This document shows, piece after piece, positions 33,713-55,136 of a stretch of DNA of 64,000 nt. The notes beneath the pieces were generated by a model, which searched no databases, was not told the DNA's origin, and saw nothing but the letters and a program-made list of their open reading frames with translations. Within the stretch, counting starts at the first letter, position 1. Each line of letters begins with the position of its first letter. The position numbers and the translations under genes are program-made. This DNA is from Streptomonospora alba (GTDB lineage Bacteria; Actinomycetota; Actinomycetes; Streptosporangiales; Streptosporangiaceae), in the NCBI RefSeq assembly GCF_000826685.1, contig NZ_JROO01000034.1, positions 1 to 64,000 of the forward strand, read 5' to 3'.

Positions 33713-33787
33713 AGCCGCGCCGCCGCAGTGCCCGATCCATGCCGGATTCCCGCCCTCACCCGCCCCTCCTGTGTGAAAGCGACCGTT

Positions 33788-35128
33788 ATGCCGCTGGCCC
33801 CTGACCCCCCGCCGCCGCTCCTGCGGCTGGACGATCCCGCCCTGGACCTACCCGCCGCCCTCGACGATCTCCACCCGGAGCACTTCCAGCGGGGGCTAGT
33901 GCCCGTCGAGTTGGAGAAGGGTGTGTCCGCCTGGCTCATGATCACCCTGTATTGCCTCCAGCACGTCCTCAAAGACGAGCGGTACTACGCCCGCGACCCC
34001 CGCGCTTGGCGCGACCTGGGCAACGGCACCATCCCCGACACCAGCCCCCTCCACGCGCTGTATCCGCCTCGCAGGAACGCGCTGTCGGTCGACGGCGCCG
34101 AACACACCCGGCTGCGCGCCGCACTGACCGGCGCGCTGGAGGAGGTCGCGCTCCACCACGTCACCCACGAGGTGAGCCAGACCGCCGACGTGATCATCGA
34201 CTGGTTCTGCACCCGCGGCGAAGCCGACGTCGTCTCCGAGTACGCCTCCGTGCTCCCGCTGCTGGTGCTGTGCCGCCTGTTCGGCATGGACCAGCACGCC
34301 GGGCTGCGGGTCGGCATGGCCATGCAGCGCCTCTGGGACGGCCAGGCCGACGCCGCCCACGCCCACCACCAACTCCAAGACCTCCTGCTGGGCCACGCCG
34401 CCCACCGCCGCACCCAGCCGGGCCGCGACATCACCACCGGCATGATCACCCGCGGCCTGGACGACGAGGAGATCCGCGACCAGCTCGCGCTGATCATGGC
34501 CGCCGCCCACGACCCCATCGCCCACGCCATCACCAACACCCTCGCCGACCTCTTGCAGACATCCCGGCTGCACATGGTCGGCTCCACCTGGCTGATCAGC
34601 GAAACCCTCAACCACGGGATCTGGCACCACCCGCCCCTGGAGACCCTGGTGGGCCGCTTCCCCACCGTCGACGGCCTCGAGCTGGGCGGCTACCGGCTGG
34701 CTCGGGGCGACTGCCTGGTCATGGGCTTCGGCGCCGCCCAGCGCCACCAGCTGCGCACCGCCCCGCCCAGCCCCTCCAACCGGGCCTATCCGGTCTTCGG
34801 CATGGGACCGCACGGCTGCCCCCGCCTGGGCCGCGACATCGCCCTGGCCACCGCCCAAACCGGGGTGGAACGCCTCCAGCAGCGCCTGCCCGACCTACGC
34901 CTGCGCGAGAACGACACCCCGCGGCGCGCCTCGACGGTCATCGCCGGACGCCGCGCCCTGCCTGTCACGTTCACCCCCGCCCGCCCGCTCACACCCCCCG
35001 AAACCCACCAGGAGGACCCGTGGACGCCGTCCCCCGCCCCGCAGCGCGCATCCGCCTCGCACTCGACGACCCCGCCACCAACACGCAGCGCCTTCGAGCG
35101 GCTGGCCCGGTGGCTGCGGTTGATCTAG
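33788..35128 (+). CDS. Cytochrome P450 lacking ExxR (CYP157-like)
   Basis: 446 aa from the ATG at 33788; an in-frame start 20 codons earlier is less likely. The heme-binding loop is FGMGPHGCPRLGRD with Cys344. The K-helix position reads SETLNHGIW, so the usual Glu-x-x-Arg is missing. The I-helix (AAAHDPIAHAI) lacks the normal acid-Thr pair. Loss of ExxR is known for the CYP157 family, which pairs with a second P450. The last 36 residues overlap the next gene by 109 bp and look non-native, hinting at a lost stop codon. Confidence 0.82.
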   Translation: MPLAPDPPPPLLRLDDPALDLPAALDDLHPEHFQRGLVPVELEKGVSAWLMITLYCLQHVLKDERYYARDPRAWRDLGNGTIPDTSPLHALYPPRRNALSVDGAEHTRLRAALTGALEEVALHHVTHEVSQTADVIIDWFCTRGEADVVSEYASVLPLLVLCRLFGMDQHAGLRVGMAMQRLWDGQADAAHAHHQLQDLLLGHAAHRRTQPGRDITTGMITRGLDDEEIRDQLALIMAAAHDPIAHAITNTLADLLQTSRLHMVGSTWLISETLNHGIWHHPPLETLVGRFPTVDGLELGGYRLARGDCLVMGFGAAQRHQLRTAPPSPSNRAYPVFGMGPHGCPRLGRDIALATAQTGVERLQQRLPDLRLRENDTPRRASTVIAGRRALPVTFTPARPLTPPETHQEDPWTPSPAPQRASASHSTTPPPTRSAFERLARWLRLI

Positions 35129-36228
35129 CCGGCCTGGGCCTGTGGGCCGCCTGCGGGGACGAGGCCCTGCGCACCGTCCAAGGCGACACCAGCGGCACGT
35201 TCCTGCGCGGCGCCGAGAACTGGCCCGCCCTGCAACGCGGCGAGTTGGACCGCGCCCATCCGCTGGTGGCGCTGGTGGGCGACCTGCGCAGCCTCCTCGC
35301 CCTCAACGGCACCGAGCACGAACAGATCCGCCGCCTACTGCGGCCCGCGTTCACCCCGGCCGCTGTGAAACAGCGCCGCAGCCAGATCGAGGCCATCACC
35401 GAGAGGCTGCTCGATGGGATGGAGCAGGCTGGCCCTCGGGTGGACCTGCTGGATTACGCCTGGGAGTTGACCGTGGAGGTGTTCCTCGACCTGTTCGGGC
35501 TCGGTGCCGAGCACGCCGCGACACTCACCGACATCACCACCCGCGCCTTCGCATTGAGTGACCCGGGCGTGCATGAGGAAGCCCGCGCCTATATCGCCGA
35601 CCTGCTCGACCGCCGCTCGCCTGAGGCCGAGGGCGACCTGATCTCGCTGCTGGCCGCGGCCCAGCGCGAGGGCGACGTGTCGCGCGCCGACGCCGTCGAC
35701 ACCTGCTACCTGCTGATCGTTGCGGGTTTCGACACCACCCTCGGGGCTCTGCTGAATTCCGCCCACGCCCTGCTCACTCACCCCGACCAACGCGACTTGG
35801 TCCTGTCCGGGCGGGTGGCGTGGGCGCCGGCGGTCGAGGAGTGTCTGCGCCGCTATAGCTCCGTGGCCACCCTCCCGATTGTCTTCACCACCCGCGACGT
35901 CGAGCTGTGCGGCACCGAGCTGCCCGCCGGGGCCGGGGTGCTGCTGGGCATCGCCGCCGCCGGACTCGACCCCCACCGGTGGCAGGACCCGGAGGTCTTC
36001 GACGTCACCCGCAATCCCCGCGGCCACCTGGCCTTCGGCCACGGCCCGCACCTGTGCCTGGGCGCCCACCTCGCCCGCCTGGAACTCGAAACGGCCCTGT
36101 CGGGCCTGTTGACCCGCTTCCCCCACCTTGAACTGGCGGGACCCGTCCCGCCGCTGCCCAGCTTCATGATCCGCCGCCCCGCCAGCCTGCCGGTGAATCT
36201 GGGCTCGGGCGCCGTCCACGCCGCCTGA
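35020..36228 (+). CDS. Cytochrome P450 (canonical)
   Basis: 402 aa from the GTG at 35020, with AGGAGGA 5 bases upstream. All hallmarks are present: I-helix AGFDTT, K-helix EECLRR (ExxR) and heme loop FGHGPHLCLGAHLARLE with Cys346. It starts inside the preceding P450 gene. The pair resembles the adjacent CYP157/second-CYP pairs of actinomycete conservons, but no conservon GTPase or kinase genes are nearby. Its substrate is unknown; oxidation of the pathway peptide is possible. Confidence 0.9.
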   Translation: MDAVPRPAARIRLALDDPATNTQRLRAAGPVAAVDLAGLGLWAACGDEALRTVQGDTSGTFLRGAENWPALQRGELDRAHPLVALVGDLRSLLALNGTEHEQIRRLLRPAFTPAAVKQRRSQIEAITERLLDGMEQAGPRVDLLDYAWELTVEVFLDLFGLGAEHAATLTDITTRAFALSDPGVHEEARAYIADLLDRRSPEAEGDLISLLAAAQREGDVSRADAVDTCYLLIVAGFDTTLGALLNSAHALLTHPDQRDLVLSGRVAWAPAVEECLRRYSSVATLPIVFTTRDVELCGTELPAGAGVLLGIAAAGLDPHRWQDPEVFDVTRNPRGHLAFGHGPHLCLGAHLARLELETALSGLLTRFPHLELAGPVPPLPSFMIRRPASLPVNLGSGAVHAA

Positions 36229-37244: not shown

Positions 37245-38078
37245 GTGGCGTGGTTGACGATCATGTCTTTGAATCTCCAACACGGCGGCATCCAGACCGG
37301 CGACGGCCGCCCCGACGACCGGTGGCCCGAGCTGGCCGCCACCATCAACGCCGCCTCACCCGACATCCTCTGCCTGCAGGAATGCCACGGCTGGACCGAC
37401 CACCTCCACCACCAGGTCTACCGGGCCGAGCGGGACCTGGACATGCGCCTGGCCGGACTCGTCGGCGGCCGCGCCGTCGGCGGCAACGCCGTCTTCTACC
37501 GGCCCGGCGCCGTCGCCCAGTGCGGGTGGGCCGAGGCCTACGCCCGCGAGCTCTACACCGGCCTGGGCGTCGCGCTCTTCGCGGTCGAGGGGGTGCCCGA
37601 GCGGTTGGCCGTGGTCAGCACGCATCTGAGCACCACCACCGCCGAGCAGCAGGTCGAGGAGGCCATGCGGGTCGCCGACCGCGTCACCCGCTACGGCGGC
37701 TACGGGGTGATGATCGGCGACATCAACGCCCACCCGCTGTTGGACGGCGGCCGGTTCCCGGATCCGGCCGGCATCAAGCCGCTGGACCGCACCTGCCGCT
37801 ACGACGAGGCCGACCAGCCCGACCGGCGCGTGGCGCGCCGCCTGCACCGCGCCGGGCTTACCGATGCGGCCGCCCACCTGGCCGCCCGGACACACAACAC
37901 CGACCACTACGCGCCGACGGGCACGGGAAAGATCCGGGTGGACCGGGCCCTGCTGACCCTGCCCCTGGTCCCGCTCCTGAGCGGCTACACGCGCATCTCC
38001 ACCGCCAGCGACCACGACGCCATCGCCATCACGCTCGACCGCCCCGATGCCGGCCCAGCCGCATCGGCTGCTGCCTGA
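37245..38078 (+). CDS. Endonuclease/exonuclease/phosphatase (EEP) family hydrolase
   Basis: 277 aa from the GTG at 37245, behind AGGAAGAGGA. EEP motifs are seen in order: MSLNLQHGG, ILCLQECHGW (metal-binding Glu), VVSTHLS, IGDINAHPLLDG (catalytic Asp-x-Asn), and TASDHDAIAITL (final His). EEP enzymes cleave phosphodiesters or phosphate esters in nucleic acids, lipids or small molecules. Its place in a RiPP operon is unusual and may point to a phosphorylated intermediate, or to no pathway role. Confidence 0.8.
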   Translation: MAWLTIMSLNLQHGGIQTGDGRPDDRWPELAATINAASPDILCLQECHGWTDHLHHQVYRAERDLDMRLAGLVGGRAVGGNAVFYRPGAVAQCGWAEAYARELYTGLGVALFAVEGVPERLAVVSTHLSTTTAEQQVEEAMRVADRVTRYGGYGVMIGDINAHPLLDGGRFPDPAGIKPLDRTCRYDEADQPDRRVARRLHRAGLTDAAAHLAARTHNTDHYAPTGTGKIRVDRALLTLPLVPLLSGYTRISTASDHDAIAITLDRPDAGPAASAAA

Positions 38079-38133
38079 CCCATGGCCCGCAGCCGCTGCC
38101 CGTGATCGCTGTCCCGACGTGCTCTGGAGTTGT

Positions 38134-40074
38134 ATGAACCGGCGCCGCCCACGCCGCCCACGCCGCCCTGCCCCGGCCACGCCCGCAGGACTGCCCGAAC
38201 TGGCCACCAGCCGCTTCCACCCCTGGTTCGGCGACCTGCAGCGCCTGTCGCTGTGGCGCATGCTCACCCGCCTGCCCGCCCTCATCGCCACCGCCCTGCG
38301 CTGGAGCTGGAAAGCCAGCCCCCGCGACACCTTGCTCACTGTCGGGCTCAACGTCGCCGCCGGCGCCTTCTCCGCGATCGTGCTCACCGCGGTGGTGGGC
38401 ATCCTGCAGGGCCTGTTCGCCGAGGGTCCCACCCCCGAGCGGCTGCAGGCCGCCCTGCCCTCGCTGCTGCTGGCCGGGGCCGCCGCCCTCACCCGGGCCG
38501 CGCTGCGCTCCGCAGCGATCTGGGCCCAAGGCCGGCTCACCCCGATGGTCGAGCGGGTCGTGGAGGTCGAACTCGTCTCGCTGACCACGGCCACCCGCCT
38601 GGAGGCCTTCGACGACTCCGACTGGTGCGACCAGATCCACCGCGCCCGCACCCTGGGCGTCTACGAAGCCGGACGCATCACCGGCTACGCCGCCGACATC
38701 GCCACCGAGCTGGTCAGCCTGCTGGCCGTGGCCACCGTCGTCACCGTCCTGCATCCCGTGCTGCTGCCGCTGCTGGCGCTGACCGTGGCCCCGGTCGGCT
38801 GGGCCGCGATCCGCTCGGCGCGGATGCGGTATGCGCGGATGCGGGCGCTGAGCACCTCCAACCGGCTGCTGTATATGTACACCCACGCCATGACCGAGCG
38901 CGAGGCCGCGGCCGAGCTGCGCGCCTACGCGATGCGCCCCATGCTGCTGGCCGAATTCGCCCGCATCTCCGACCATGTGCGCGACGCCCTCCTGGCCGTG
39001 GTCGGGCGCCAGACCACCACCCGCGCTGTGGGCGACGTGCTGGGCGGCATCGCAACCCTGGCCACCTACGCCGCCCTGGTGGCGCTGCTGCTGGCCGGGC
39101 TGATGCCGCTGGCGGTGGCCGGGGCCGCCTACCTCGCCCTGGGCCAGGGCAAAGCCGCCCTGGATCGGCTCATGAGCGCCGTCAACTCCTGCTACGAATC
39201 CGGGCTGTATCTGTCGGACCTGCTGGAGGCCTTCGACCACGCCCGCCGCCGCACCCCGCCCGCCACCGGCGGAACCTCCCCGGGCCCGTTGAAGGAGCTG
39301 CGGGTGCAGGGCGTGGACTTCGCCTACCCCGCCACGGAGGCCAACGCGCTCACCGGAGTCAGCATCACCGTCGAACGCGGCCGGGTCGTGGCCCTGGTCG
39401 GCGAGAACGGATCGGGCAAATCCACCCTGGCCACCCTCATCTCCGGGCTGTACGTGCCCGATGCCGGGACCATCACCTGGAACGGCACCGGCATCGCCGA
39501 CCTGGCCCCCGGCGAGCTGCACGCACGGATCGGGCTGATCCGCCAGCAGTACCACCAGTGGCCCTTCTCCGCCGAACGCAACATCACCATGGCCGCCCCC
39601 GGCGCCGCCGAGCCCGACCGGCTGGGTCGGGCCTTGCGCCTCAGCGGCGCCGACCAGGTGGTCGAGGACCTCGCCCACGGGTTGGACACGCCGCTGGATA
39701 CCCGGTTCAAAGACGGCGAGGATCTCTCCGGCGGGCAGCGCCAGCGCATCGCCGCCGCCCGCGGCCTCTATCCCCAGGCTGATCTGGTCATCGCCGACGA
39801 GCCCACCGCCGCCCTGGACGCCCGCGCCGAGGAGCGGCTGTTCTCCACCTTCCAGGCTGCCGCCGACGGGGCCGCGGTGTTGCTGATCACCCACCGGTTG
39901 GCCAGCACCCGCAGCGCCGACTGGATCTACGTCCTCGACCACGGCCACGTCGTCGAACAGGGCACCCACACCGACCTGATCACCCACGGCGGGCTGTATG
40001 CCGAGCTGTACGGCATCCAGGCGGCCGCCTACAACGGAGCCACCCCGAACCGGCACACCGAAGAAGTCCCGTAG
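38134..40074 (+). CDS. ABC exporter (fused membrane and ATPase domains)
   Basis: 646 aa from the ATG at 38134 (CTGGAGT 5 bases upstream). Six transmembrane helices are expected between residues about 55 and 360 (LLTVGLNVAAGAFSAIVLTA and LAGLMPLAVAGAAYLAL among them). The ATPase has Walker A GENGSGKST, signature LSGGQRQRIAAARG, Walker B LVIADEPTAALDA and the switch His in LLITHRLAS. Half-transporters of this kind export peptides as homodimers. It lies 64 bp upstream of the precursor peptide, so export of the RiPP is the likely job. Confidence 0.9.
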   Translation: MNRRRPRRPRRPAPATPAGLPELATSRFHPWFGDLQRLSLWRMLTRLPALIATALRWSWKASPRDTLLTVGLNVAAGAFSAIVLTAVVGILQGLFAEGPTPERLQAALPSLLLAGAAALTRAALRSAAIWAQGRLTPMVERVVEVELVSLTTATRLEAFDDSDWCDQIHRARTLGVYEAGRITGYAADIATELVSLLAVATVVTVLHPVLLPLLALTVAPVGWAAIRSARMRYARMRALSTSNRLLYMYTHAMTEREAAAELRAYAMRPMLLAEFARISDHVRDALLAVVGRQTTTRAVGDVLGGIATLATYAALVALLLAGLMPLAVAGAAYLALGQGKAALDRLMSAVNSCYESGLYLSDLLEAFDHARRRTPPATGGTSPGPLKELRVQGVDFAYPATEANALTGVSITVERGRVVALVGENGSGKSTLATLISGLYVPDAGTITWNGTGIADLAPGELHARIGLIRQQYHQWPFSAERNITMAAPGAAEPDRLGRALRLSGADQVVEDLAHGLDTPLDTRFKDGEDLSGGQRQRIAAARGLYPQADLVIADEPTAALDARAEERLFSTFQAAADGAAVLLITHRLASTRSADWIYVLDHGHVVEQGTHTDLITHGGLYAELYGIQAAAYNGATPNRHTEEVP

Positions 40075-40138
40075 CCGCACGCCGGTGAGTCCGATTCCGA
40101 TCCGTCCGCCCGCGTCCAGTCCACGGAAGGGGGCAGTC

Positions 40139-40156
40139 ATGCGCTACGACCACTGA
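40139..40156 (+). CDS. bytA: Biarylitide-type pentapeptide precursor MRYDH (bytA-like)
   Basis: An 18-bp gene: ATG CGC TAC GAC CAC TGA, encoding Met-Arg-Tyr-Asp-His. GGAAGGGGG at 40125-40133 ends five bases before the ATG and is a strong ribosome site. A P450 gene starts 78 bp downstream. This is the layout of biarylitide clusters, where the precursor (MRYYH in the type case) is the smallest known RiPP gene and the P450 joins Tyr3 and His5 side chains. Tyr3 and His5 are kept here and residue 4 is Asp. Identification rests on the exact pattern, spacing and neighbour. Confidence 0.85.
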   Translation: MRYDH

Positions 40157-40164
40157 TGCCCACC

Positions 40165-40200
40165 CGGCGGCCGGGCCCTAACGAATGCGCCCGGCCGCCG
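40165..40200 (+). promoter_or_regulatory. Hairpin between the precursor and the P450 gene
   Basis: Perfect 12-bp arms (40165-40176 and 40189-40200) with a 12-base loop, beginning 9 bp after the precursor stop codon. There is no T-run, so it more likely stabilises or attenuates the transcript. Such a structure would let the peptide be made in excess of the enzymes. Confidence 0.6.
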
Positions 40201-40234
40201 CACCCCACCGGACAGCGAAGAGGTCAGGCTCGCT

Positions 40235-41422
40235 ATGCCAACTCCCGGATACGATCCGCTGAATCCAGAAACCCTCCGTGACCCGTACCCGGCCTATGCG
40301 CTCATGCGCGAGCACGCCCCCGTGCTTTGGCACGACCGCATGGGCTGCTGGGTGCTCTCCCGCTACGCCGACTGCGTGGCCGTCCTGCGCGACCACGACA
40401 CCTTCGCGCGCGACCCGCGGCGTGTGGGCGAAGCGATCCCCGAGCCCAGTCTCAGCGTGCAGTCCCTCGATCCCCCCGAGCTGGGGCCGCTGCGCCGCCT
40501 CCTGATGAACGCCGTACACACCTGCGACCTGAACGGCCTCGCCCAACGCACTCGCGAACGGTCCGACGCACTGCTGTCGGCTCTGGCCACCCAGACAACG
40601 TTCGACGTCGTGGAGGACTTCGCGTCCCCGCTCTCGCTCGATGTCATCTGCGACCTGCTGGGCGTGGATCGACCCGAGCGGGGATCCTTCGCCGAAGCCT
40701 CCGACGCGATCATGCGCAGCATGGACGCCGGCCTGCTGCCGGAGACCGCCGAGCCGGGGCGCCGTGCACGCCAGCAGCTGAGTGCACTGGTGGCCTCCTG
40801 GTTCGCCGAGTCGGACGCGCCGGGTCTGCTCGCGGAGATGCGGCGCGGCGCCCCAGCCGCCGGAGTCCCCGAGACCTATGTGCGCAACACCGCCCGGGTG
40901 CTGTTCCAAGGCGGCTACAGCACCATGGTAGCCGCCATCGGCAACGTAACCGCCCAGCTCATGCAATACCCGGGCCTACTGGAGCACCTGAGCGAGCCCG
41001 AGACCCGCACCACCGGGGTGGACGAACTGATCCGCTACGACGGACCCGTGCAGGGCACAAGCCGCACCGCTACCCGGGCGGTGACCATCGGCGGCACCCG
41101 CATCGAGGCCGGACAGACCGTGCTCGTGCTGCATGCGGCCGCCAACCACGATCCCGACCAATTCCCCCGGCCCGACGAACTCCTGCTCGACCGGTCCCCC
41201 AACCCTCACCTGGGGTTCGGCTGGGGTCCCCATGCCTGCGCGGGCACGCTACCGGCCCAGATCGCCCTGCACGCGGTGGTCGAAGCCCTGGCCGCGCGCC
41301 CTCGGCTTTGTGCGGCGGGGGCCTTCGTGCGGCGCCGCACCGCCACCATGCGCGGCTGGCAACACCTGCCCGCCGCTTTCATCCCCGCGGCCTGCACAGC
41401 CCCGTCCGGGAGGCACCCGTGA
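40235..41422 (+). CDS. bytO: Cytochrome P450, predicted Tyr-His cross-linking enzyme (bytO-like)
   Basis: A 395-aa P450. Heme loop FGWGPHACAGT with Cys335; K-helix DELIRY with Glu264 and Arg267. The I-helix reads LFQGGYSTMVAAIGN, lacking the usual AGxxT, which may reflect radical coupling rather than oxygen insertion. The assignment as the biaryl-forming enzyme rests mainly on its position 78 bp after MRYDH. In biarylitide clusters this P450 makes the aryl-aryl bond between Tyr3 and His5. The TGA overlaps the GTG of the ligase gene. Confidence 0.82.
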   Translation: MPTPGYDPLNPETLRDPYPAYALMREHAPVLWHDRMGCWVLSRYADCVAVLRDHDTFARDPRRVGEAIPEPSLSVQSLDPPELGPLRRLLMNAVHTCDLNGLAQRTRERSDALLSALATQTTFDVVEDFASPLSLDVICDLLGVDRPERGSFAEASDAIMRSMDAGLLPETAEPGRRARQQLSALVASWFAESDAPGLLAEMRRGAPAAGVPETYVRNTARVLFQGGYSTMVAAIGNVTAQLMQYPGLLEHLSEPETRTTGVDELIRYDGPVQGTSRTATRAVTIGGTRIEAGQTVLVLHAAANHDPDQFPRPDELLLDRSPNPHLGFGWGPHACAGTLPAQIALHAVVEALAARPRLCAAGAFVRRRTATMRGWQHLPAAFIPAACTAPSGRHP

Positions 41423-42789
41423 GACTACTCATCGGCAACCACATCGACGACTCGATCCGCCTACGGCCCGAGACACGCGCCTGGACCCAGCGCATCGTCT
41501 GGTTCGCCCGCGACGGCGACCTGATCGTGCTCCCCGACCACCCCGACAGCCGCTTCGTGGCCTATGCGACCGCGCTGACCGGCGTCGACTCCACCACGCT
41601 GCGCTTCCATAGTCCCCCAGGCGGCCGTTACGGCCGCGCCAGCTTGGACCCGCTCAGCCTCACCGCGCCCGCGTTCGTCGCCGCCGTGGCCGCCGACCTC
41701 GGCGACGTCGAGGAGGTATTCGCCCTCTGGCCCTCGGCGCAGGTGACTCGCCTGGCCGAAGCGCTCGGCGTCGCCGACCGCTTCCCCGGAGCCAAGTTCT
41801 TCGCCCAAGGCGGCGGAGAGGTGGCCAACAACAAAGCGACCTTCCGCGCCCTGGCCGCCGGCGCCGGTGCCGCGACCCCCGCGGGGGCGGTGTGCCGCAG
41901 TCAAGCCGAGGCCGCGGCGGCGACCCACGCGCTACTCAAAACCACCACTGCGGTGGTGGTCAAACAGGCCCACAACGGCGCCGGCGTGGGCAATCAGGTC
42001 GTGACCGAGGACCCCGCGGTGGCCACCGGCCATGCCGGGGCCCGGCACCACCATCAACTGCCGCCCGGTGCAGGAGCCGTCGAAGCCTACTGGGAGCAGC
42101 ACTGGGCATGGGCCTCAGCCGCCGACCGGTTCCCCGTCGTCGTCGAGGAATTCCGGCCCGGCGCCACTTCGGTCTATGCCGAGTTCTACGCCGGCGACGA
42201 CGGTGTCCGTCCGACCGAGGCCGGGGCGCTCTACTACGCGCAGGGGCGGTTGAGCCACCAGATCGTCCCGCTGCGCTCCGAGCACCGGCAGCGGCTGGTG
42301 GGTGCCGCGGCACCATTGGCGCAGGCCTATCAGCGCCTGGGCTATCGGGGCCCACTTAGCGCCGACGCCCTTCTGGAAGACGGCGGAGGCATCCTCTTCA
42401 CCGAAGTCAATGCACAAGTCTCCGGATCGCTGCACATCTACCAGGTGATCGCCCACGCCATCGTGCAGGCCGATACCCCGCCCCAGCGCCTCGTCGTGGA
42501 GCACCACGTACCGCCCCGATGGAACGTGTCCGGGTTCGAGGAGTTCCTGCAGGCGCTCGACGAGCTGGACGTCGCCTACGACCCGCGTACCCGAACCGGA
42601 GTGATCGTGTCGATGCCCGTCATCGCGCTGGAACCGGGGGCGGCACGCTTCGTGTTCTGCATCGCCTATGCGACCGAGGCCCATCGCCGCCACGTCTACG
42701 CGCTTCTGGACGAGCGCTTCACCACCCCATCCGCATCGGCCGCGACCGGCCCCGCAGCCGCGGAGGCGTCCCCAGCACCGAGCGAATGA
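41419..42789 (+). CDS. Pre-ATP-grasp peptide ligase (PGM1-like)
   Basis: 456 aa from the GTG at 41419 (GTGA overlap). The N-terminal 130 residues (LLIGNHIDDSIRLRPETRAW; DGDLIVLPDHPDSRFVAYAT) match the pre-ATP-grasp domain. The ATP-grasp domain follows (AVVVKQAHNGAGVGNQVV as nucleotide-binding segment; PVVVEEFRPG; ILFTEVNAQVSGS with the metal-binding Glu-x-Asn). The C-terminal domain resembles PGM1_C. PGM1 joins a guanidino amino acid to the N-terminus of a ribosomal peptide in pheganomycin biosynthesis. A matching role on MRYDH-derived peptide is inferred. Confidence 0.82.
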   Translation: MRLLIGNHIDDSIRLRPETRAWTQRIVWFARDGDLIVLPDHPDSRFVAYATALTGVDSTTLRFHSPPGGRYGRASLDPLSLTAPAFVAAVAADLGDVEEVFALWPSAQVTRLAEALGVADRFPGAKFFAQGGGEVANNKATFRALAAGAGAATPAGAVCRSQAEAAAATHALLKTTTAVVVKQAHNGAGVGNQVVTEDPAVATGHAGARHHHQLPPGAGAVEAYWEQHWAWASAADRFPVVVEEFRPGATSVYAEFYAGDDGVRPTEAGALYYAQGRLSHQIVPLRSEHRQRLVGAAAPLAQAYQRLGYRGPLSADALLEDGGGILFTEVNAQVSGSLHIYQVIAHAIVQADTPPQRLVVEHHVPPRWNVSGFEEFLQALDELDVAYDPRTRTGVIVSMPVIALEPGAARFVFCIAYATEAHRRHVYALLDERFTTPSASAATGPAAAEASPAPSE

Positions 42790-42805
42790 GACAGAAGGAG
42801 CGTCG

Positions 42806-43777
42806 ATGCATTCCCCTTGCCCGACATGGCCGGCGCCGGCGACACAGTTGCGCCCCAGGTTCGCCCCCGACCGGCTAGTCCACGACCTGGCCCGGCTGAG
42901 GCGACACCGCTGGGCCAAGCAGCGCATCCACAACGCCTCCGGAGTCGGCGCCGAAACCGACGTCGACTGGCGCGTGCTCCCGCTGCGCAGCCCCGGCGGG
43001 GTCCCCGAGCGCACGGACCCCGGCGGCCCCGGCCCCGACGGTTTCGCCCCCACCGAATGGACCCACCACGCCCCCTACCTCGCCGAAGTCCTGGCCACCC
43101 TCCCGGCGCCGGTGAACGCGGCCCGCCTGATGGCGCTCGCGCCCGGTGCGGTATCAGCCGAACACTGCGACCCCAAGTACGCCCTGACCCGCGGCCTGGC
43201 ACGGATCCACCTTGTACTTTCCACCAACCCCGACGCGGTCCTCGTCTTGGACGGCACCGCCTACCGCTGGCAGCCGGGCCAGCTGTGGTTCGGCGAGTTC
43301 GCTCGCCCCCACCTGGTCCGCAACGACGGCGCCACGACCCGCGTCCACCTGGTCATCGACGCCCTGCTGACCGCCGAACTCGCCACATGGTTCCCCCGCG
43401 ACTGGGCCGAGGCCATGCACGCAGGCGCCGCCCTGATGAACCGGCCCGCCGCCGCTTTGGACTCCTCACCAGCGACCACCGTGCGCCTGCCCGCGTCCTT
43501 CCTCGACTTCGCCCCCACCGGCGGGGGCGACTCCATGCCCGCCCCCGACGAGCCCGCCATCGAGGCGCGTGTGGAACCGGCTTGGGATCAGTGGCGGCTG
43601 ACCGTAGCCGACGGCCGCGTCTTCGCCCTGGTCCACCTCGGGGAGGGGGAGTTCCGCTTCTGCGGCTGGAGCGAGCAGCGCACACTCCAGATCCGTGAAA
43701 GCGACGTGCTGCTGCGCACCCGCACCCCCACGTCCAGCCACCCGATGCCGATCCCGGCACGTCCCAACGAACACTGA
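42806..43777 (+). CDS. Aspartyl/asparaginyl beta-hydroxylase-like dioxygenase
   Basis: 323 aa from the ATG at 42806 (AGAAGGAG 6 bases upstream). The core RIHLVLSTNPDAVLVLDGTA, YRWQPGQLWFGEFARPHL and TRVHLVID aligns with the AspH fold. His120 (EHCD) and His169 (RPHLVRN) match the two iron-binding His, and Arg179 (TRVHLVID) the 2-oxoglutarate-binding Arg. AspH enzymes hydroxylate the beta carbon of Asp or Asn in peptides. The precursor carries Asp4, an obvious candidate. The C-terminal 110 residues are outside the known fold. Confidence 0.82.
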   Translation: MHSPCPTWPAPATQLRPRFAPDRLVHDLARLRRHRWAKQRIHNASGVGAETDVDWRVLPLRSPGGVPERTDPGGPGPDGFAPTEWTHHAPYLAEVLATLPAPVNAARLMALAPGAVSAEHCDPKYALTRGLARIHLVLSTNPDAVLVLDGTAYRWQPGQLWFGEFARPHLVRNDGATTRVHLVIDALLTAELATWFPRDWAEAMHAGAALMNRPAAALDSSPATTVRLPASFLDFAPTGGGDSMPAPDEPAIEARVEPAWDQWRLTVADGRVFALVHLGEGEFRFCGWSEQRTLQIRESDVLLRTRTPTSSHPMPIPARPNEH

Positions 43778-43788
43778 AAGGCCTCGGT

Positions 43789-44931
43789 ATGCGACTCAAC
43801 AGCCACAACGAATGGGCGCCGCTGAAAGAGATCGTCGTCGGCTCGGCCCAGAACTACACCTCCCACGACCGGGAGGTCTCCTTCGACCTCTTCCACCACG
43901 AGAACCTGTTCCGCTCCGATTGGGCCTATCCCCGCCTGCACACGGCGCGCGGGCCCGTCGAAGGACGGCAATGGCACCTCAAGCAGCGCTACGTCGACGA
44001 GCTCCACGAAGACGTGGAAGACCTCGCTCAACTGCTGGTCGGCCTCGGCGTCACCGTCCACCGCCCCATCCCGCTGCCGCCCGACGCCGCCCCCATCGCC
44101 GGTCTGGGCTGGCAGGCACCACCCACTCCCGCGCTCAACATCCGCGACAACACGCTCATCCTCGACAGCGAGATCATCGAAACCCCGCCGACGATCCGCT
44201 CGCGCTACCTGGAGACCCGTCTGCTCGCCCCGGTGTTCCAGCACTACTACGACCGCGGCGCGACCTGGACGACCATGCCGCGCCCCCTGCTGACGGACGC
44301 CTCCTTCGACCTGTCGTATGCACGCGATACGACCACCGCCCTCGGGGGGCCCACCGAGCCCATCGACGAGCCCGCGCCCTCGCCCTACGACGTCGGCTTC
44401 GAAATGCTGCTCGACGGCGCCCAATGCCTGCGCTTGGGTCGCGACCTGCTGGTCAACATCGCCACCGAGAACCACCGCCGCGGCTGCGACTGGCTGGAGC
44501 GCCACCTTCGGGGCCGCTACCGGATCCACCGCATCGACCGCATAGCCGACAACCACATCGACTCCATGCTGCTGGCACTACGCCCCGGCGTCTTCCTGGC
44601 CCGCCACGCCGACCTGCGCGACCAGCTGCCCGCACCGTTCGACACCTGGAAGGTGATCGTCCCTCCCGAACCCGCCGAAGGGAACTTCCCCGTCTACGAC
44701 GACGGCGATCTGCTGCTGACCAGCCCCTACATCGACCTGAACGTGCTGTCCATCGACACGGAAACCGTGCTGGTCAACGCCGACTGCCCCGAGCTCGCCA
44801 CGACGCTGGACAAGGAAGGCTTCACCGCCATCCCGGTCCGCCACCGCCACCGGCGCCTCTTCGGCGGCGGGTTCCACTGCTTCACCCTCGACACCGTGCG
44901 CGAAAGCGGTCTGGAGGATTACCGCCAGTGA
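43789..44931 (+). CDS. L-arginine amidinotransferase (guanidino transfer)
   Basis: A 380-aa protein of the glycine amidinotransferase family. WAPLKEIVVGSAQNY opens the pentein fold. Active-site residues can be placed: Asp209 (LLDGAQCLRLGRD), His256 (ADNHIDSMLLALRPG) and nucleophile Cys364 (GGGFHCFTLDTVR), matching the Asp-His-Cys triad. Such enzymes move the amidino group of arginine to an amine, giving a guanidine. It starts 11 bp after the hydroxylase and overlaps the next gene. In pheganomycin the capping amino acid is a guanidino acid, so a parallel is likely. Confidence 0.88.
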   Translation: MRLNSHNEWAPLKEIVVGSAQNYTSHDREVSFDLFHHENLFRSDWAYPRLHTARGPVEGRQWHLKQRYVDELHEDVEDLAQLLVGLGVTVHRPIPLPPDAAPIAGLGWQAPPTPALNIRDNTLILDSEIIETPPTIRSRYLETRLLAPVFQHYYDRGATWTTMPRPLLTDASFDLSYARDTTTALGGPTEPIDEPAPSPYDVGFEMLLDGAQCLRLGRDLLVNIATENHRRGCDWLERHLRGRYRIHRIDRIADNHIDSMLLALRPGVFLARHADLRDQLPAPFDTWKVIVPPEPAEGNFPVYDDGDLLLTSPYIDLNVLSIDTETVLVNADCPELATTLDKEGFTAIPVRHRHRRLFGGGFHCFTLDTVRESGLEDYRQ

Positions 44932-46196
44932 CCCGCATTCTGCTCTTGGAGGCCGCCGGCCCCGAGTCGGGCGCGCTGGCCCGCACCGCAGCGCGCCAGA
45001 ACTTCGCCGTCTACGCCGCCACCCACCCCGCGCGCTACAGCGATTACCCGCCCTGGCTGCGCGAAATACTGACCGATTGGCTCGCCACCGACTTCACCAC
45101 CCCCGACCGCGCACTGGCCGAGATCACCGCCTTCGCCCGCAGCAACCGGATCGACGCCGTCCTGACCGCCAGCGAATACCTCACCCCACTGGCCGCCCGC
45201 GCATGCGCAGCATTGGGACTGCCCGGAAACGACCTCGGCGCCGCTGAGGCAGCGCGCAACAAGGTGACCATGGCCGCCCGCTTTGACCGCTGCGGCGTCG
45301 ATGCCCCACCGACGTCGGTCCCCCACAGCGCCGATGCGGCCGCGGCCCTGACCCGCCGACCCGGCGGGCTGCCGTGCGTCGTCAAACCCGCCGAACAGGC
45401 CGGATCCCACGGCGTCACCATCGCCCATGACACCGACCAGGCGGTCGAGGGCTACCGCCGCGCCCGGCGTCTCGCCTACGAAAGCACCTACGGCCTGTCT
45501 TTGGATACCCGCGCGCTCGTGCAGCCGCTGGTAGCCGGTACCGAGTACAGCGTCGAATCGATCACCGCCCAAGGACGCAGCCATCATGTGTGCATCACCC
45601 GCAAGCACACCGTCGCCGGTATCGAAACCGGGCATGACCTGCCGGAGCTCCTGCCGCCCCACACCCGCCGCCGGATTCTCGCCGAGACCGACAAGGCACT
45701 CGCGGCGCTGGGCGTCTGCAACTCCGCCTCGCACACCGAGGTCATCGTGGAGCCCTCCGGGCGCTGCCGCATCATCGAAGTCGGCGCCCGCACCGGCGCC
45801 GGCCGCATCGGCTTTCTGATCGGCTACGCGCTGGGTATCGACTGGTGGCAAGCCTGCATCGACACCAGCCTTGCCTGCCCGGTCGAGCTCTCTGCCACAC
45901 GCAGCCGCCACGCCGCCATACGTTTCCTCACCAGCTCGCGCCACGGGACCCTGCAGGGTCTGGACCATCTCCCCACCACCGAACCCGACGTTCCCGAGAT
46001 CCACCTCCGCGCGGCCGTGGGCGAGCGGATGGAACCGACCAGCGGCAACAGCACACGCTTAGGCAGCTTCATCACCGTCGGCAGCACCTCGGAGGCGCTG
46101 TCGCGGCGCGCCGACGAACTGTTGGGCACCATCCGCGTCCGTCTCGCATCAAACGCGGCGACCCCGCCCCCGGAGACGGGAGTGCAGTACACATGA
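44928..46196 (+). CDS. ATP-grasp ligase (amino acid/peptide ligase)
   Basis: 422 aa from the GTG at 44928, which overlaps the amidinotransferase stop; GGAGGA lies 9 bases upstream. The N-terminal Rossmann-like part (MTRILLLEAAGPESGALART) precedes the ATP-grasp core (GGLPCVVKPAEQAGSHGVTI; YSVESITAQGRSHHVCITRK; IIEVGARTGAGRIGFLI with the metal-binding Glu). The pattern is that of L-amino acid ligases, not of PGM1. It could form a second amide bond on the peptide or build the capping unit. Substrates are not readable from the sequence. Confidence 0.85.
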   Translation: MTRILLLEAAGPESGALARTAARQNFAVYAATHPARYSDYPPWLREILTDWLATDFTTPDRALAEITAFARSNRIDAVLTASEYLTPLAARACAALGLPGNDLGAAEAARNKVTMAARFDRCGVDAPPTSVPHSADAAAALTRRPGGLPCVVKPAEQAGSHGVTIAHDTDQAVEGYRRARRLAYESTYGLSLDTRALVQPLVAGTEYSVESITAQGRSHHVCITRKHTVAGIETGHDLPELLPPHTRRRILAETDKALAALGVCNSASHTEVIVEPSGRCRIIEVGARTGAGRIGFLIGYALGIDWWQACIDTSLACPVELSATRSRHAAIRFLTSSRHGTLQGLDHLPTTEPDVPEIHLRAAVGERMEPTSGNSTRLGSFITVGSTSEALSRRADELLGTIRVRLASNAATPPPETGVQYT

Positions 46197-46978
46197 GGAC
46201 GCCCGCGAGCACCTCCCGGGAACCCACCGCGCAGAGCTTTGACCCGCTCTTCCCCGGAGACCAGACCGCGACGGGCTTTGCCCGCATCGCGCATCTGGCC
46301 GACCCGACACTCCCGCCAACGATCGCGCCCTGCTCATTTCTGACGTCCGACCTGCTGAAGCACATCGCCCAGGCCTTGGCGCTGCGACCTGGGCACGTGT
46401 TGGCCGATCTGGGCTGCGGCAACGGCGGCCCCGGGATGTGGCTGGCCGACCACTCCAACGTCCGCCTGATCGGTATCGACTTCTCCGCAGCCGCCCTGAC
46501 CCAGGCGACGCGGCGCACGACGGACTTCGCCTGCGGCCATCGCGCCCGCTTCGTCCTGGCCGATCTGGCCGCCACCAGCCTGCCCGACGCCAGCACCGAC
46601 GCCGCCCTATCCATCGACGCGCTGCAATACCCGGGCGATCGCCGCGCCGCCGCAGCCGAAGCCCATCGCATCCTGCGCCCCGGCGGACGACTCGTCCTCA
46701 CGGGGTGGCACCCTCACCGACCCGGCGATGCACGGCTGCCGCCACGCCATCGCCACACCGACTGGCCTGCCACCCTGCACCGTGAGGGATTCACGCACAT
46801 AACGGTGACCACGCGACCTGCCTGGGACAGCGCCTACCAGGCCATGTACCGTCTCGCCCTCGAACACGGCGACCCCGGTTCCGACACCGCGCTGCAGGGC
46901 CTGCAGCAGGAGGCCCAACAGCGCTTGCCCACCGCCCATCTCCTGCAACGCGTCGCCGTGACAGCAACGGCACGCTGA
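46193..46978 (+). CDS. Class I SAM-dependent methyltransferase
   Basis: 261 aa from the ATG at 46193 (ATGA overlap). Motif I is VLADLGCGNGGPGMWLA, the acidic loop is LIGIDFSAAAL, and ALSIDALQYPGDRRAAAAEA with ILRPGGRLVLTGWH completes the methyltransferase 11 pattern. It resembles small-molecule O- or N-methyltransferases. It is the last gene of the biosynthetic operon and lies 25 bp from the convergent kinase. Confidence 0.87.
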   Translation: MRTPASTSREPTAQSFDPLFPGDQTATGFARIAHLADPTLPPTIAPCSFLTSDLLKHIAQALALRPGHVLADLGCGNGGPGMWLADHSNVRLIGIDFSAAALTQATRRTTDFACGHRARFVLADLAATSLPDASTDAALSIDALQYPGDRRAAAAEAHRILRPGGRLVLTGWHPHRPGDARLPPRHRHTDWPATLHREGFTHITVTTRPAWDSAYQAMYRLALEHGDPGSDTALQGLQQEAQQRLPTAHLLQRVAVTATAR

Positions 46979-47003
46979 AGACCGCTGTACCGCGCCCGGC
47001 ACC

Positions 47004-47987
47004 TCAGCCCAGGTCGTCGGCGATCTGCCGCATGAGGGCATAGGTCTGGTCCACATCCCCGTGACCGGTGCGGTGGCGCTCCAACCGGATCGCGCTGATG
47101 TGGCGAGCGGTGTAGACGAGCTGCCTCCACCGGGACGCGGGCGTGTCCGGAAGCTGCCCGTAGGTCTGCCAGAAGGCCTCGCGCTCGCCCCCGCGCCGGC
47201 GCGTGGCCATGTAGATCGTCCAGTCGGCAGCCGGGTCGCCCCACAAGGTTCGGTCGCAGTCGAACACCCCGGTGATCTGGGGTTCCGCAGCGTCGGGATC
47301 CAACATGACGTTCACGGTCCACAGGTCGCCGTGGAGCAGGCGCGGCTGAGTCACCTCGTCCAGCACCGCACGGTGCTTATCGGTAACTGCGATGACCCGG
47401 CGAAGATCGGCCGAGTCGAGACCGGCGTCGTCGATGTCGGCGGCCGCGTCCTCCAAGGCCGCAAGGAACGCTTCGCTCCAGTTGGCGAAGCCGGGACCGC
47501 CCACGGGTCCGAAGTGTGCTCCGCAGACGTCGTGGATGCGGCGCGCGATCTCACCCATCTGCGCGAACAAGGCCGACCACTGCTCCCGGGGGTACGTCCC
47601 CAAATGCTCGGGAGCCGGAACGCCGGGTACCACGGTCTGCAGCAGGTAGTCGCGCGCCACAAGCTCATGGGTGAAATCCGCGGCGACCACCTGTGGCATC
47701 AGATGGGCGATCGGTGCCAAGAACGGGAGGCTGGCGTATTCGTTACGCATCAGCCGGCGCTCGCTGCGGTTCTGACGCGCAGGTTCCGGAGCCACCCGGA
47801 GGATCACCGGTGCCGTGCCGTCCGTTTCGAGGCGGTAGGTGGTGTTGTACATGCCACCGCCCAGCTCGACAGCGGCATTCGCCCGGACGTCCGGACCGAA
47901 CGCACGGTGCACGATGTGGTGGACATCATCGGCGGTCACAGGGCGTTGGAAGCCGGAGGAATCGCGTTCAATTGCCCGAAATTCCAT
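47004..47987 (-). CDS. Aminoglycoside-phosphotransferase-like kinase
   Basis: 327 aa; ATG at 47987 is chosen for GGGAGAA six bases upstream. Kinase motifs: ILRVAPEPARQNRSERRLMR (phosphate-binding and Lys/Arg region), LLHGDLWTVNVMLD (catalytic loop, His219 and Asp221) and VFDCDRTLWGDPAAD (metal-binding Asp). Length and motifs fit the APH(3')/choline-kinase superfamily. Encoded opposite to and against the end of the RiPP operon; self-resistance or activation by phosphorylation is possible. Confidence 0.82.
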   Translation of the reverse strand: MEFRAIERDSSGFQRPVTADDVHHIVHRAFGPDVRANAAVELGGGMYNTTYRLETDGTAPVILRVAPEPARQNRSERRLMRNEYASLPFLAPIAHLMPQVVAADFTHELVARDYLLQTVVPGVPAPEHLGTYPREQWSALFAQMGEIARRIHDVCGAHFGPVGGPGFANWSEAFLAALEDAAADIDDAGLDSADLRRVIAVTDKHRAVLDEVTQPRLLHGDLWTVNVMLDPDAAEPQITGVFDCDRTLWGDPAADWTIYMATRRRGGEREAFWQTYGQLPDTPASRWRQLVYTARHISAIRLERHRTGHGDVDQTYALMRQIADDLG

Positions 47988-48141
47988 ATCGAGTTCTCCC
48001 ATCGCCACATGTCCGCGGTCCACACTTCTCCTCTTGTGACATGGCTCAGCGCCCGATGTCGCCGCGATCAAATGATCTTCTCGATCGAGCGCGCAGGGCG
48101 CACCCTTGCCACAAGTTCGATGACACCTGAGAGTGTCCCAT

Positions 48142-48309
48142 CTATCTTTCCCACCGGTGGCCAGATGGGGCTTCCGCTGATGCAGCCGAAACTGCAATAC
48201 GCGGATCGGGCCTCCAGTTGTCACCAGACCCGTTGGGGTGGCGGAAGTACTTGGTGGCGTGGGCGATGACGTGCCACCCCAACGTGTACTGGGGCAACCC
48301 GGTAGGCAT
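48142..48309 (-). pseudogene. N-terminal fragment of a phage terminase large subunit
   Basis: The reading begins ATG at 48309 and reads LPQYTLGWHVIAHATKYFRH, then PNGSGDNWRP, which matches the conserved start of actinophage terminase large subunits. After about codon 33 the similarity ends and the frame stops at 48142, so over 400 residues are missing. The break near 48210 marks a recombination edge of a prophage remnant. Confidence 0.65.
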
Positions 48310-48322
48310 GATGTCGAGGCGG

Positions 48323-48801
48323 CTAGCTGGTGAAGCGACGCTGGTACTCATCGAGAGCCACCACCGCCGCTTCTTCGTCCTCGTCTGTGGTCTTGCCGCG
48401 TGGCAGCTCCACGCGGGCGCGCCGCCGGTCCCCCTCTCCCACCAGGAGGGAGGTCATCGCTTTTAGGTAGGCCGACAAGGACGCGCCCTTCAGCGGGATG
48501 GCGTCCCGCAGGATCTCGCCGTCGTCGGTGGTGCCGACCACCTGGGGGCACAGGTCGCGGGACGTGGATTCCGCGATCATGCACGCCAACGCCCAGTCGG
48601 AAGGTTATTAGAACCGGGACTGGCCGGATTGCGCGAGGGCCTCGTACCAGCGCTTGGCGACCCGGTGCCACTCGTCTTCAGCGTCCGGGGGCTCGACGGG
48701 AGTGGGGTGTCGGTTTCGGCCGTGGTGGTTTCGTCGTGGTCTTTGTTACGGCGGCGGCGTTGGGCCGACCGTTTCGGGACAGGTCCGCGCTGTCCGGACA
48801 C
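48323..48801 (-). pseudogene. Broken phage terminase small subunit gene
   Basis: GTG at 48801 follows AGGAGGTG. The start MSGQRGPVPKRSAQRRRRNK leads into a frameshift near 48687-48700. In the shifted frame the sequence continues DAEDEWHRVAKRWYEALAQS, then two TAA codons at 48605-48610, then PSDWALACMIAESTSRDL and ASLSAYLKAMTSLLVGEGDR to 48323. The pieces together form a terminase small subunit; the two stops replace the usual Tyr-Glu of the RFYEPSDW motif. One frameshift plus two stops make it non-functional. Confidence 0.8.
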
Positions 48802-48832
48802 AGCGACCACCTCCTACCGCTAAGTTCACCTC

Positions 48833-49561
48833 ATGCGTCGTGCAGAAGAAGCCGCCACCCCTCCCACGGCTCTCGACTGGTGGGGGCTCGTTATCGATGC
48901 GGCAGCGTCTGTCGCGTCGATCGTCGCTCTCATAGTCGCCGCTCTGGCAGTCCGATACGCCTGGGCCGATAGGCCACGTGCTGTGTGGCGTTTCGACGTC
49001 GACCGCGACCACTGGCGGGAACGGACGAGCGAATCCTCGAAGGTGAGGGTGGAGGAGTTAATCAGCACTCGCGATGAGCAACTAGTCATGGTCGATGTCT
49101 TCGCCGAGGGAACAGCGCTAATGCGCAGCGTCCATGTCCGGATCAAGGGGGCGGAGTTACTCGAAGGCAGCAGCAACCTTAAGCAAAACATCATGACCCG
49201 TGGATCCTCGCCGGTCACCTGCCTCTTAGCGATCCCTGACGCCGAGCAGCAGCAAAGCTATGTCGAAGTTCTCTGGGCCACCCGACGCCCGCTGCGGCAC
49301 CACGGACAACGTCTGAACCTAAGCACTGAAGAATACGAGACGTGGCGATGGCACTGGTGGCCGGCTCCTCTCCGCTTGACGGCAAAAGGAAGGTGGCGGT
49401 GGCTGAAGCTTTGGACCGTGCGAAGGAGCACGAGAAAGGGAACCTGGGTCACTGGCCGGAAGACGCCCCGCGACACCATCTACCAGGCCGAAGAGCGTCG
49501 CTACATCCGCCTGGGCACGTCCCCGAACTCCAAAACCCGTACAGAGTCCGAGCGGCCATGA
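48833..49561 (+). CDS. Hypothetical membrane protein (242 aa)
   Basis: ATG at 48833, without a strong ribosome site. One N-terminal helix (LVIDAAASVASIVALIVAAL, residues about 19-40) precedes a soluble, Trp/Arg-rich part. No named family known to me. Single-helix proteins with this layout are common as cargo in actinophage genomes. It is divergent from the broken terminase genes. Confidence 0.55.
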   Translation: MRRAEEAATPPTALDWWGLVIDAAASVASIVALIVAALAVRYAWADRPRAVWRFDVDRDHWRERTSESSKVRVEELISTRDEQLVMVDVFAEGTALMRSVHVRIKGAELLEGSSNLKQNIMTRGSSPVTCLLAIPDAEQQQSYVEVLWATRRPLRHHGQRLNLSTEEYETWRWHWWPAPLRLTAKGRWRWLKLWTVRRSTRKGTWVTGRKTPRDTIYQAEERRYIRLGTSPNSKTRTESERP

Positions 49562-54210: not shown

Positions 54211-55136
54211 TGGCCCCGGATTCTCTTCCCCCTGCTCCTGCTGGGGCCCGGACGCGGCTGCGCAACCACTATGGGGGCGCGGTCACCGGCTGGCTGGATG
54301 CGGCCCCCGAACTGCTGGCAAAGGCGGCACGACGGTGGGGTCTGACTGTGCTCGGCTACCACGACGCCGGCCACGCCTCGCTGATCGCCACTGGCACCGC
54401 GGCCGATGGCCAGCGGGTGGTCCTCAAGGCCTGGCCCGAGGTCGCCCGCTATCGCGCGGAAACCGCCGCGCTGGCCTTGTGGGACGACGCTCCGGCAGTG
54501 GACACCGTCGCCACCGCCGACGACATAGCGGTGGCCGCCCTGGCCCAGGTCGGAGGCCGACCAGGCGGGAATACACGCCCGGCCCAGAGCTGTGAGCTTC
54601 CGCGGGTCGCGGCGGCTCTGCATCGCGTGCACAGCGTCGGTCGGCTGCAGGACCAACTCGCGGAATTCGCCACACTCAGCGACTACATCGCCGGCGTCGT
54701 CCGCCCGCGCATCCACCGACGCCGCGATCTCGCGGGCAAGCATGGATACCGCTGGCATCTGTGGGCCGGCGAGGCAGCGCTGCCATACGTGCGCCAGGAG
54801 GAACAGCGTGTGACACTCCTGCACGCCGACCTGTATCAGGAGAACACCCTCATTGATGACCGAGCTGAACCGGTGTTCATCGATCCGCTGCCGACGGTGG
54901 GCGACGCCGTCTTCGACTGGGCTTTCTGGGTCGTCTACTACACCCTCGGCGCTGGCACCATTGAGCGCTTGCAGTTGGCGGTAACAACAGCCGGCATCGA
55001 CACCGCCGACTTGCTGCCGTGGTGTCGGATGCTGTGCCTGGACGGGCTCCTCTACTACGTGGACACCAAAGACGCGCGCGCCCCGATCATCGCCGAGGTG
55101 TTGGAGCTGCTGGAGAACGGAGAGCGACAGCAGTGA
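54210..55136 (+). CDS. APH-like phosphotransferase, second in operon
   Basis: A 308-aa protein whose ATG overlaps the previous stop (TGATG). N-lobe: VLKAWPEVARYRAETAALAL. Catalytic loop: LLHADLYQENTLIDD (His-Ala-Asp, Asn). Metal site: VFIDPLPTVGDAVFDWAFWV. This resembles streptomycin-6-phosphotransferase and hydroxyurea-kinase relatives. Role unknown; with the two other kinases in the window it may phosphorylate an intermediate or inactivate the product. Confidence 0.75.
   Translation: MAPDSLPPAPAGARTRLRNHYGGAVTGWLDAAPELLAKAARRWGLTVLGYHDAGHASLIATGTAADGQRVVLKAWPEVARYRAETAALALWDDAPAVDTVATADDIAVAALAQVGGRPGGNTRPAQSCELPRVAAALHRVHSVGRLQDQLAEFATLSDYIAGVVRPRIHRRRDLAGKHGYRWHLWAGEAALPYVRQEEQRVTLLHADLYQENTLIDDRAEPVFIDPLPTVGDAVFDWAFWVVYYTLGAGTIERLQLAVTTAGIDTADLLPWCRMLCLDGLLYYVDTKDARAPIIAEVLELLENGERQQ

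Follow-up and report, generated by a model that had tools for sequence, protein, structure and literature searches.

The 18-bp open reading frame atgcgctacgaccactga, located at positions 40139-40156 (+), encodes the pentapeptide MRYDH, its codons being read from the sequence as ATG CGC TAC GAC CAC TGA. It lies within the window, the whole stretch of 64,000 nucleotides of Streptomonospora alba DNA that was analysed, and the ORF listing places 78 bp between its stop codon and the start of a cytochrome P450 gene. The ORF, its strong ribosome site, the gap to the P450 and the central Asp had been pointed out in an earlier note on this DNA, and all of them are confirmed from the sequence. The features of the locus are the following:

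38047..40074, + strand: ABC exporter, possible exporter, stopping 64 bp 5' of the micro-gene and outside the conserved set
40125..40133, + strand: ribosome-binding site ggaaggggg, 5 bases 5' of the start codon, with similar stretches ahead of the relatives' micro-genes
40139..40156, + strand: bytA-type precursor gene MRYDH, two-residue leader M-R and core Y-D-H (MxYDH conserved)
40165..40200, + strand: hairpin with a 12-bp perfect stem in the spacer between micro-gene and P450 (1 in 201 against shuffles)
40235..41422, + strand: BytO-type cytochrome P450, predicted Tyr3-His5 cross-linking enzyme (sequence matches, tree, binding positions)
41419..42789, + strand: PGM1-like ATP-grasp peptide ligase (PDB 3wvq, PGM1, E 1.1e-75; Pfam PreAtp-grasp)
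42806..43777, + strand: aspartyl/asparaginyl beta-hydroxylase family enzyme (PF05118; likely start 42806, frame open from 42668)
43789..44931, + strand: arginine:glycine-type amidinotransferase (PDB 2jdx, AGAT, E 3.2e-42)
44928..46196, + strand: ATP-grasp L-amino-acid-ligase-like enzyme, LAL_C2 (3vot, E 1.5e-21; BacD, E 6.7e-19)
46205..46978, + strand: SAM methyltransferase, optional cluster member (start approximate)
47004..47987, - strand: APH-family kinase, convergent (PF01636, E 1.1e-24; frame open to 48224, likely start 47987 by the relative L014)

The MRYDH gene has the hallmarks of a biarylitide precursor, that is, an 18-bp gene encoding MxYx(H/Y/W) tightly coupled to its P450 (500 bp or less in earlier work, 78 bp here), and it carries Asp at position 4, as the precursors of the Asp4/Pgm1 subgroup do. 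The relaxed pattern ATGCGNTAYNNNCAYTRR, which stands for MRYxH followed by a stop, returns a single match on both strands of the 5.9-Mb genome, the window locus itself, and its reversed control returns none on the same strands.

Conservation of the micro-gene and placement of its P450

Relatives of the P450 were sought in 84,980 species genomes using short peptides of the window enzyme as patterns, FQGGYSTM among them, which biases the resulting 39 loci toward close kin. All 21 close relatives (L014-L034, 54-62% P450 identity) carry an MxYDH gene with a ribosome-site-like stretch, 96-139 bp ahead of the matched P450 start (16 MSYDH, 4 MFYDH, and 1 MTYDH, one of them with a GTG start). None of the 18 distant loci (L035-L052, identity ≤32%) has, within 600 bp upstream, a 5-8-residue ORF whose third and fifth residues are aromatic; of these 600 bp, 590 are available in L037 and 82 in L047. 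Five-residue ORFs ending in YDH number 21 on both strands of the 39 loci (1,361,686 positions), which equals the number of micro-genes. A plasmid search gave eight hits, from which six loci were taken for micro-gene inspection; four of them (Streptomyces, 53-59% identity) have M(S/T)YDH upstream of the P450. The earlier note had staked its reading on the micro-gene accompanying the P450 in orthologous loci, as it does in the 21 relatives and these four plasmid loci, and its remark that gene callers miss so short a gene is borne out by the plasmid annotations, which name the P450 and the later genes without the micro-gene. Asp4 and His5 are invariant in the 26 Asp4 micro-genes (window, 21 relatives, and four plasmid loci), of which the window one is the sole MRYDH. 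Conservation of the micro-gene is thus far beyond chance. Two further plasmid P450s have a different peptide just downstream, MNYNH in Bacillus arachidis (45%; L111, 8477-9730) and MRHIH in Streptomyces albogriseolus (38%; L112, around 6001-7210). No relative was found in phage and viral collections.

In the host family, such a P450 occurs in 18 of 250 genomes, the window genome included, and each of these P450s has a micro-gene nearby, upstream in four (window included) and just downstream in 11. The MRYWY micro-gene of L095 (7677-11608) lies about 1.56 kb downstream of the P450, and the micro-genes of L096 (MRYRH; 5449-8105, -) and L097 (MRYIH; 5240-7989, -; weak ribosome site) lie about 1.5-1.6 kb upstream with another gene between. 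As described in the text of PMC13417212, such separation was previously known only in the MRYWY clade. The intervening gene of L096 weakly resembles a circularly permuted ATP-grasp protein (Pfam, 18.2 bits, below cut-off), and L095 has kin of the window APH-type kinase (56%) next to its MRYWY-type P450. Among the six genomes of the genus searched, this P450 is present at E 1e-60 only in the window genome, and the five others return no Pgm1-like gene at E 1e-30.

The P450 comprises 395 residues. In a PDB sequence search, its best ten sequences score 250-320 bits, and the next family 143. These ten include RufO (8SPP, 9DUJ, and 9EBY) and P450Blt (8U2M), as assigned in the text of PMC12186263, together with 9jv0, which is identical over 378 residues to the P450 of L004 located behind an MRYYH micro-gene; two other matches, 22yx and 9m47, are merely named 'Cytochrome P450'. 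In a tree of 43 rows, including 12 of the 21 close relatives, the window P450 belongs to a biarylitide clade of 31 rows (support 100/98), within which an Asp4 clade of 13 rows is nested (100/100). The window enzyme stands outside the other 12 Asp4 rows with support just below the usual mark (94/96), and the remaining 18 rows of the biarylitide clade group at 93/85. A small-molecule oxidase, the placement that the earlier note had named as contrary to its reading, was rejected on both the PDB scores and the tree.

Positions 84, 172, 188, and 231 (RufO numbers) hold the pentapeptide in RufO (text of PMC12186263). The combination Gln84-Met172-Arg188-Arg231 is found in 13 of 13 Asp4 rows and in 17 of the 18 other rows of the biarylitide clade, the exception being L067, which differs at 84 and 188, and none of the 12 outgroup rows has all four; residue 84 is called Glu in PMC12186263, and the 9EBY chain reads Gln by the numbering offset used here. 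Other positions set the Asp4 rows apart. Position 235 is Gln in 22 of 22 Asp4 rows and His (14), Val (3), or Phe (1) in the others, while Arg residues at 67, 170, 185, and 377 are present in 22 of 22 Asp4 rows and each in at most one of the 18 others. These four positions are in or beside stretches that touch the peptide in RufO, and the Arg residues may fit an acidic residue 4 and hold Asp4. Since AchB rejected Glu as residue 4 (text of PMC13417212), an acidic residue there plausibly needs an Arg-type change in the P450. Within the Asp4 clade, both Glu74, which falls in the leader-Arg region, and Arg2 of the precursor are unique to the window, a pairing that, as one case, is suggestive only. 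Regarding the bond, it is His234 that steers P450Blt toward a C-N link, and its replacement by Leu gave C-C links on another substrate (text of PMC10929621); the P450 of an MRYYH locus (L055) has Val at this position. Because it is Gln in the window enzyme, the Tyr-His bond is weakly predicted to be C-C rather than C-N.

Tailoring genes and the proposed pathway

The genes that follow the P450 were compared by tblastn with the loci of the 21 close relatives. The PGM1-like ligase, whose start overlaps the P450 stop (GTGA), is present in 21 of 21 (53-62%, a partial match in L034), so that the Pgm1 homologue of the subgroup lies in this cluster too. The amidinotransferase (67-75%), which has no match in NCBIfam or Pfam, the LAL-like ligase (39-50%), and the APH-type kinase (52-60%, a short match in L022) are likewise found in all 21, and the beta-hydroxylase in 19 (45-55%), L014 and L029 being devoid of it. 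The SAM methyltransferase is found in 5 of 21 (57-61%) and annotated in one of the four plasmid loci. By annotation, these four loci have the same gene order: hydroxylase, second ligase, and kinase are named in all, the amidinotransferase is named in three and hypothetical in one, and the first ligase is PGM1-related in one and hypothetical in three. The earlier note had described a minimal system of micro-gene and P450; the pair stands, but the system is not minimal, since conserved ligases, hydroxylase, amidinotransferase, and kinase follow it. With this conserved tailoring set behind the P450, the pathway probably passes through the bare cross-linked tripeptide as an intermediate. The five conserved tailoring genes define a set for co-expression. 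The cluster arrangement is also encountered in other actinobacteria.

Several neighbouring genes were rejected as members of the conserved set. The ABC exporter returns only generic matches of 29-33% in 2 of 21 relatives and none in a second comparison, and two P450 ORFs (33728-36228), a methyltransferase at 36311, and an endo/exonuclease/phosphatase-like gene at 37155 are without conserved counterpart near the relatives' micro-genes. The two P450 ORFs are adjacent, the first of them lacking any Pfam match at 0.01. A dedicated leader peptidase was not identified.

At E 1e-60, the amidinotransferase search returns 6 of 250 family genomes, three at 62% identity or more (the window genome, G489, and G541) and the other three at 40-43%. 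A Pgm1-like gene is present in 12 of 297 genomes searched, including all three with the closer amidinotransferase, and G408, found via Pgm1, has both genes within 1 kb. Two loci, L091 (8558-12306) and L092 (9586-12663), bring a Pgm1-like ligase (37-38%) near an amidinotransferase of 62-64% identity; a BytO gene was not found beside the pair in either locus, nor an MxYDH gene in L091-L094. The Pgm1 and amidinotransferase module is therefore used elsewhere too, and L091 and L092 may make other peptides with the same capping module.

Taken together, the locus is probably a RiPP cluster of the biarylitide type that belongs to the Asp4/Pgm1 subgroup and whose product would be capped and further tailored. 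From the observed gene order, homology, conservation, P450 clade, and binding positions, we infer its expression, each reaction, their order, and the product as follows. The ribosome would make the pentapeptide M-R-Y-D-H from the 18-bp gene, the hairpin behind it probably raising precursor output above enzyme output. The P450 would bind the whole pentapeptide and join Tyr3 to His5 across Asp4 (-2 H), after which a peptidase, perhaps a housekeeping one, would remove M-R; in myxarylin, a prolyl oligopeptidase likely removes the leader (text of PMC12951456). The amidinotransferase would make a guanidino acid, and once the leader is gone, the PGM1-like ligase would attach this acid to the N-terminus of cross-linked Tyr-Asp-His, much as PGM1 joins a derivative of guanidinoacetic acid to the N-termini of peptides (texts of PMC8939145 and PMC8359417). 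The beta-hydroxylase family enzyme would oxidise the peptide, Asp4 being the obvious site, and the LAL-like ligase would add a further amino acid. The convergent kinase would phosphorylate the product or an intermediate, most likely for self-protection, and is probably a self-protection kinase.

Some observations weigh against this reading. The position of P450Blt His234, important in that enzyme, is Gln throughout the Asp4 rows, and the reaction could differ; two relatives lack the hydroxylase; the cluster has no identified leader peptidase of its own; and the capping pair also occurs without BytO or MxYDH. From the sav cluster, heterologous expression yielded nothing beyond simple cross-linked YVH (text of PMC13417212), with Val4 and not Asp, so that the roles assigned to hydroxylase and amidinotransferase are tentative and Asp4 hydroxylation is insecure. 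A fully specified version is doubtful as a whole: that Asp4 clusters make guanidino-acyl-capped, beta-hydroxylated, cross-linked Tyr-Asp-His, two free-standing ligases extending the ribosomal core at either end, that the product has an activity strong enough to call for a dedicated self-protecting kinase, that the clusters spread on plasmids, and that the hairpin is general to biarylitide genes and boosts micro-gene over enzyme.

Alternatively, the pentapeptide could serve as a carrier on which Tyr3 (or His5) undergoes a different oxidation by the P450, the modified residue or a fragment then being set free for use by the two ATP-grasp ligases as a building block. RufO does nitrate Tyr3 (text of PMC12186263), the Asp4 clade lacks the I-helix His of P450Blt and RufO, and the cluster has two amino-acid ligases. 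We nevertheless regard a carrier as unlikely: a nitric oxide synthase is not seen among the conserved genes, the invariance of Asp4 and His5 in 26 of 26 micro-genes would be needless for a Tyr carrier, and PGM1 accepts whole peptides (texts of PMC8939145 and PMC8359417). It is still less probable that the bare cross-linked Tyr-Asp-His is the final product and that the downstream genes belong elsewhere, as the bare tripeptide from the sav cluster might suggest (PMC13417212, text), given that all 21 relatives keep both ligases, the amidinotransferase, and the kinase together with the P450, that the four plasmid annotations show them as well, and that the P450 and Pgm1 frames overlap.

The hairpin and the genomic context

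A hairpin was looked for in the 80 nt past the stop of 39 micro-genes, 22 Asp4 and 17 others, leaving out the plasmid loci (window, L014-L034, L055, L058-L063, L065, L066, L068-L072, and L095-L097). The sample lacks independence, L068-L071 being closely related, and the idea of the test came from the Asp4 rows, which leaves 17 fresh ones; with this reservation, a perfect stem of at least 11 bp is found behind 36 of 39 micro-genes and one of at least 9 bp behind all 39. Against 100 dinucleotide shuffles, 37 of the 39 hairpins reach p ≤0.05, the exceptions being L017 and L029. Random windows of the same loci contain a stem of at least 11 bp in 15 of 390 cases and of at least 9 bp in 68 of 390, and windows past the stops of other cluster genes in 7 and 12 of 108, respectively. 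Because the folding-energy z-scores of the spacers are modest (-4.3 to +0.2, mononucleotide shuffles), the claim rests on stem length compared with dinucleotide shuffles, random windows, and other-gene windows. Rfam reports no family match in 39000-49000. The hairpin is present whether the micro-gene precedes or follows the P450; it would ease the detection of 18-bp genes and poses a testable question about their expression.

An operon preceded by a short ORF and a hairpin shows the classic layout of an attenuator, and a stem of at least 9 bp accompanies every micro-gene tested. That MRYDH is the leader peptide of such an attenuator of the P450 operon, and not a precursor, is very improbable: in 11 of 18 family loci micro-gene and hairpin lie just downstream of the P450, which they cannot attenuate there, and known biarylitides contain the encoded tripeptide (text of PMC13417212). 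A functionless chance ORF, for which it can be said that 18 bases are few, has a negligible probability and was rejected, being refuted by the conservation in 21 of 21 relatives and four plasmid loci; the single match in the genome with none in the reversed control, and the equal numbers of YDH ORFs and micro-genes in the 39 loci, speak against it as well.

Other parts of the contig (window 1-30000 and 58923-61088, and the rest of the contig, L105 and L106) bear conjugation-like genes (PrgI, TraG P-loop), T2SSE/T2SSF, an extra DnaN, an ArdC-like anti-restriction gene, a restriction-modification methylase, a pPIWI-RE island, and an ISL3 transposase. The conjugation stretch of the window matches three plasmid records (66-67% over 63-66%), and one of the four M(S/T)YDH plasmids is typed conjugative. 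By its gene content, the window resembles a conjugative plasmid or an integrative element, and the cluster likely arrived by transfer. At 54210-57582, a second seryl-tRNA synthetase (other copy on contig C21, 42%) lies beside an APH_6-type kinase and a glycosyltransferase; this stretch, which has no match in the relatives' loci, is possibly another small biosynthetic or self-protection locus.

Comparison with known systems

The rufomycin pathway shares with the window locus a related P450 and a pentapeptide substrate. In contrast, RufO nitrates Tyr3 together with a nitric oxide synthase, and its I-helix residues His235 and Glu239 are replaced by Gln and Ser in the window P450. Pfam and NCBIfam detect no nitric oxide synthase in the ten neighbouring genes (33.7-47.0 kb). 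In L003 (243-2652), a RufO-like P450 adjoins an ORF that, from its sequence, we take to be nitric oxide synthase-like, and no MxYx(H/Y/W) gene lies within 700 bp ahead of that P450. With pheganomycin, the locus has in common a PGM1-like ligase (E 1.1e-75), an amidinotransferase, and a ribosomal peptide as acceptor. In pheganomycin, by contrast, a type III PKS takes part in making the donor, a nonproteinogenic guanidino acid of the phenylglycine type; the window cluster is devoid of such a PKS, the two matches in the genome being both on other contigs (C2 and C18).

Closer likenesses are found among biarylitides. The sav cluster of Saccharothrix variisporea (MRYVH) also has an amidinotransferase and an Asp/Asn beta-hydroxylase beside bytA/bytO, but its precursor has Val4, and no Pgm1 ligase figures in its description. 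The biarylitide YYH system (bytA/bytO) and P450Blt with MRYLH share with the window the 18-bp MRYxH-type gene beside a P450 of one clade and the conserved peptide-binding positions, and differ from it at residue 4, in the I-helix (Gln in the window, His in P450Blt, and Val in the MRYYH P450 of L055), and in lacking the extra tailoring genes.

The biarylitide reading of the earlier note is supported by conservation, P450 clade, and RufO binding positions, with the amendment that the Asp4 type had already been described bioinformatically: a subgroup with Asp4 and Pgm1, amounting to 47 of 277 biarylitide clusters, was reported in July 2026 (text of PMC13417212). No characterised member was found there, and the text gives neither a list of subgroup motifs nor a product; its main text makes no mention of a kinase, phosphotransferase, L-amino acid ligase, or hairpin. 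In the main texts of open papers, MRYDH was not found, which leaves room for a prior listing, and MSYDH was found in an unrelated paper only. According to the text of PMC13417212, no function is known for any biarylitide. If the kinase marks a self-protected bioactive product, the Asp4 subgroup would be the place to seek one. The window cluster, with its Asp4 pentapeptide, BytO-type P450, and Pgm1 ligase homologue, is an added example of this recognised subgroup, to which the present analysis brings an expanded gene set, a kinase probably serving self-protection, and a hairpin of general occurrence. It differs from the 25 other Asp4 micro-genes, which have Ser, Phe, or Thr at position 2, by its canonical Arg2, and MRYDH, as first branch of the Asp4 clade, is a natural link from ordinary biarylitides to the Asp4 kind.
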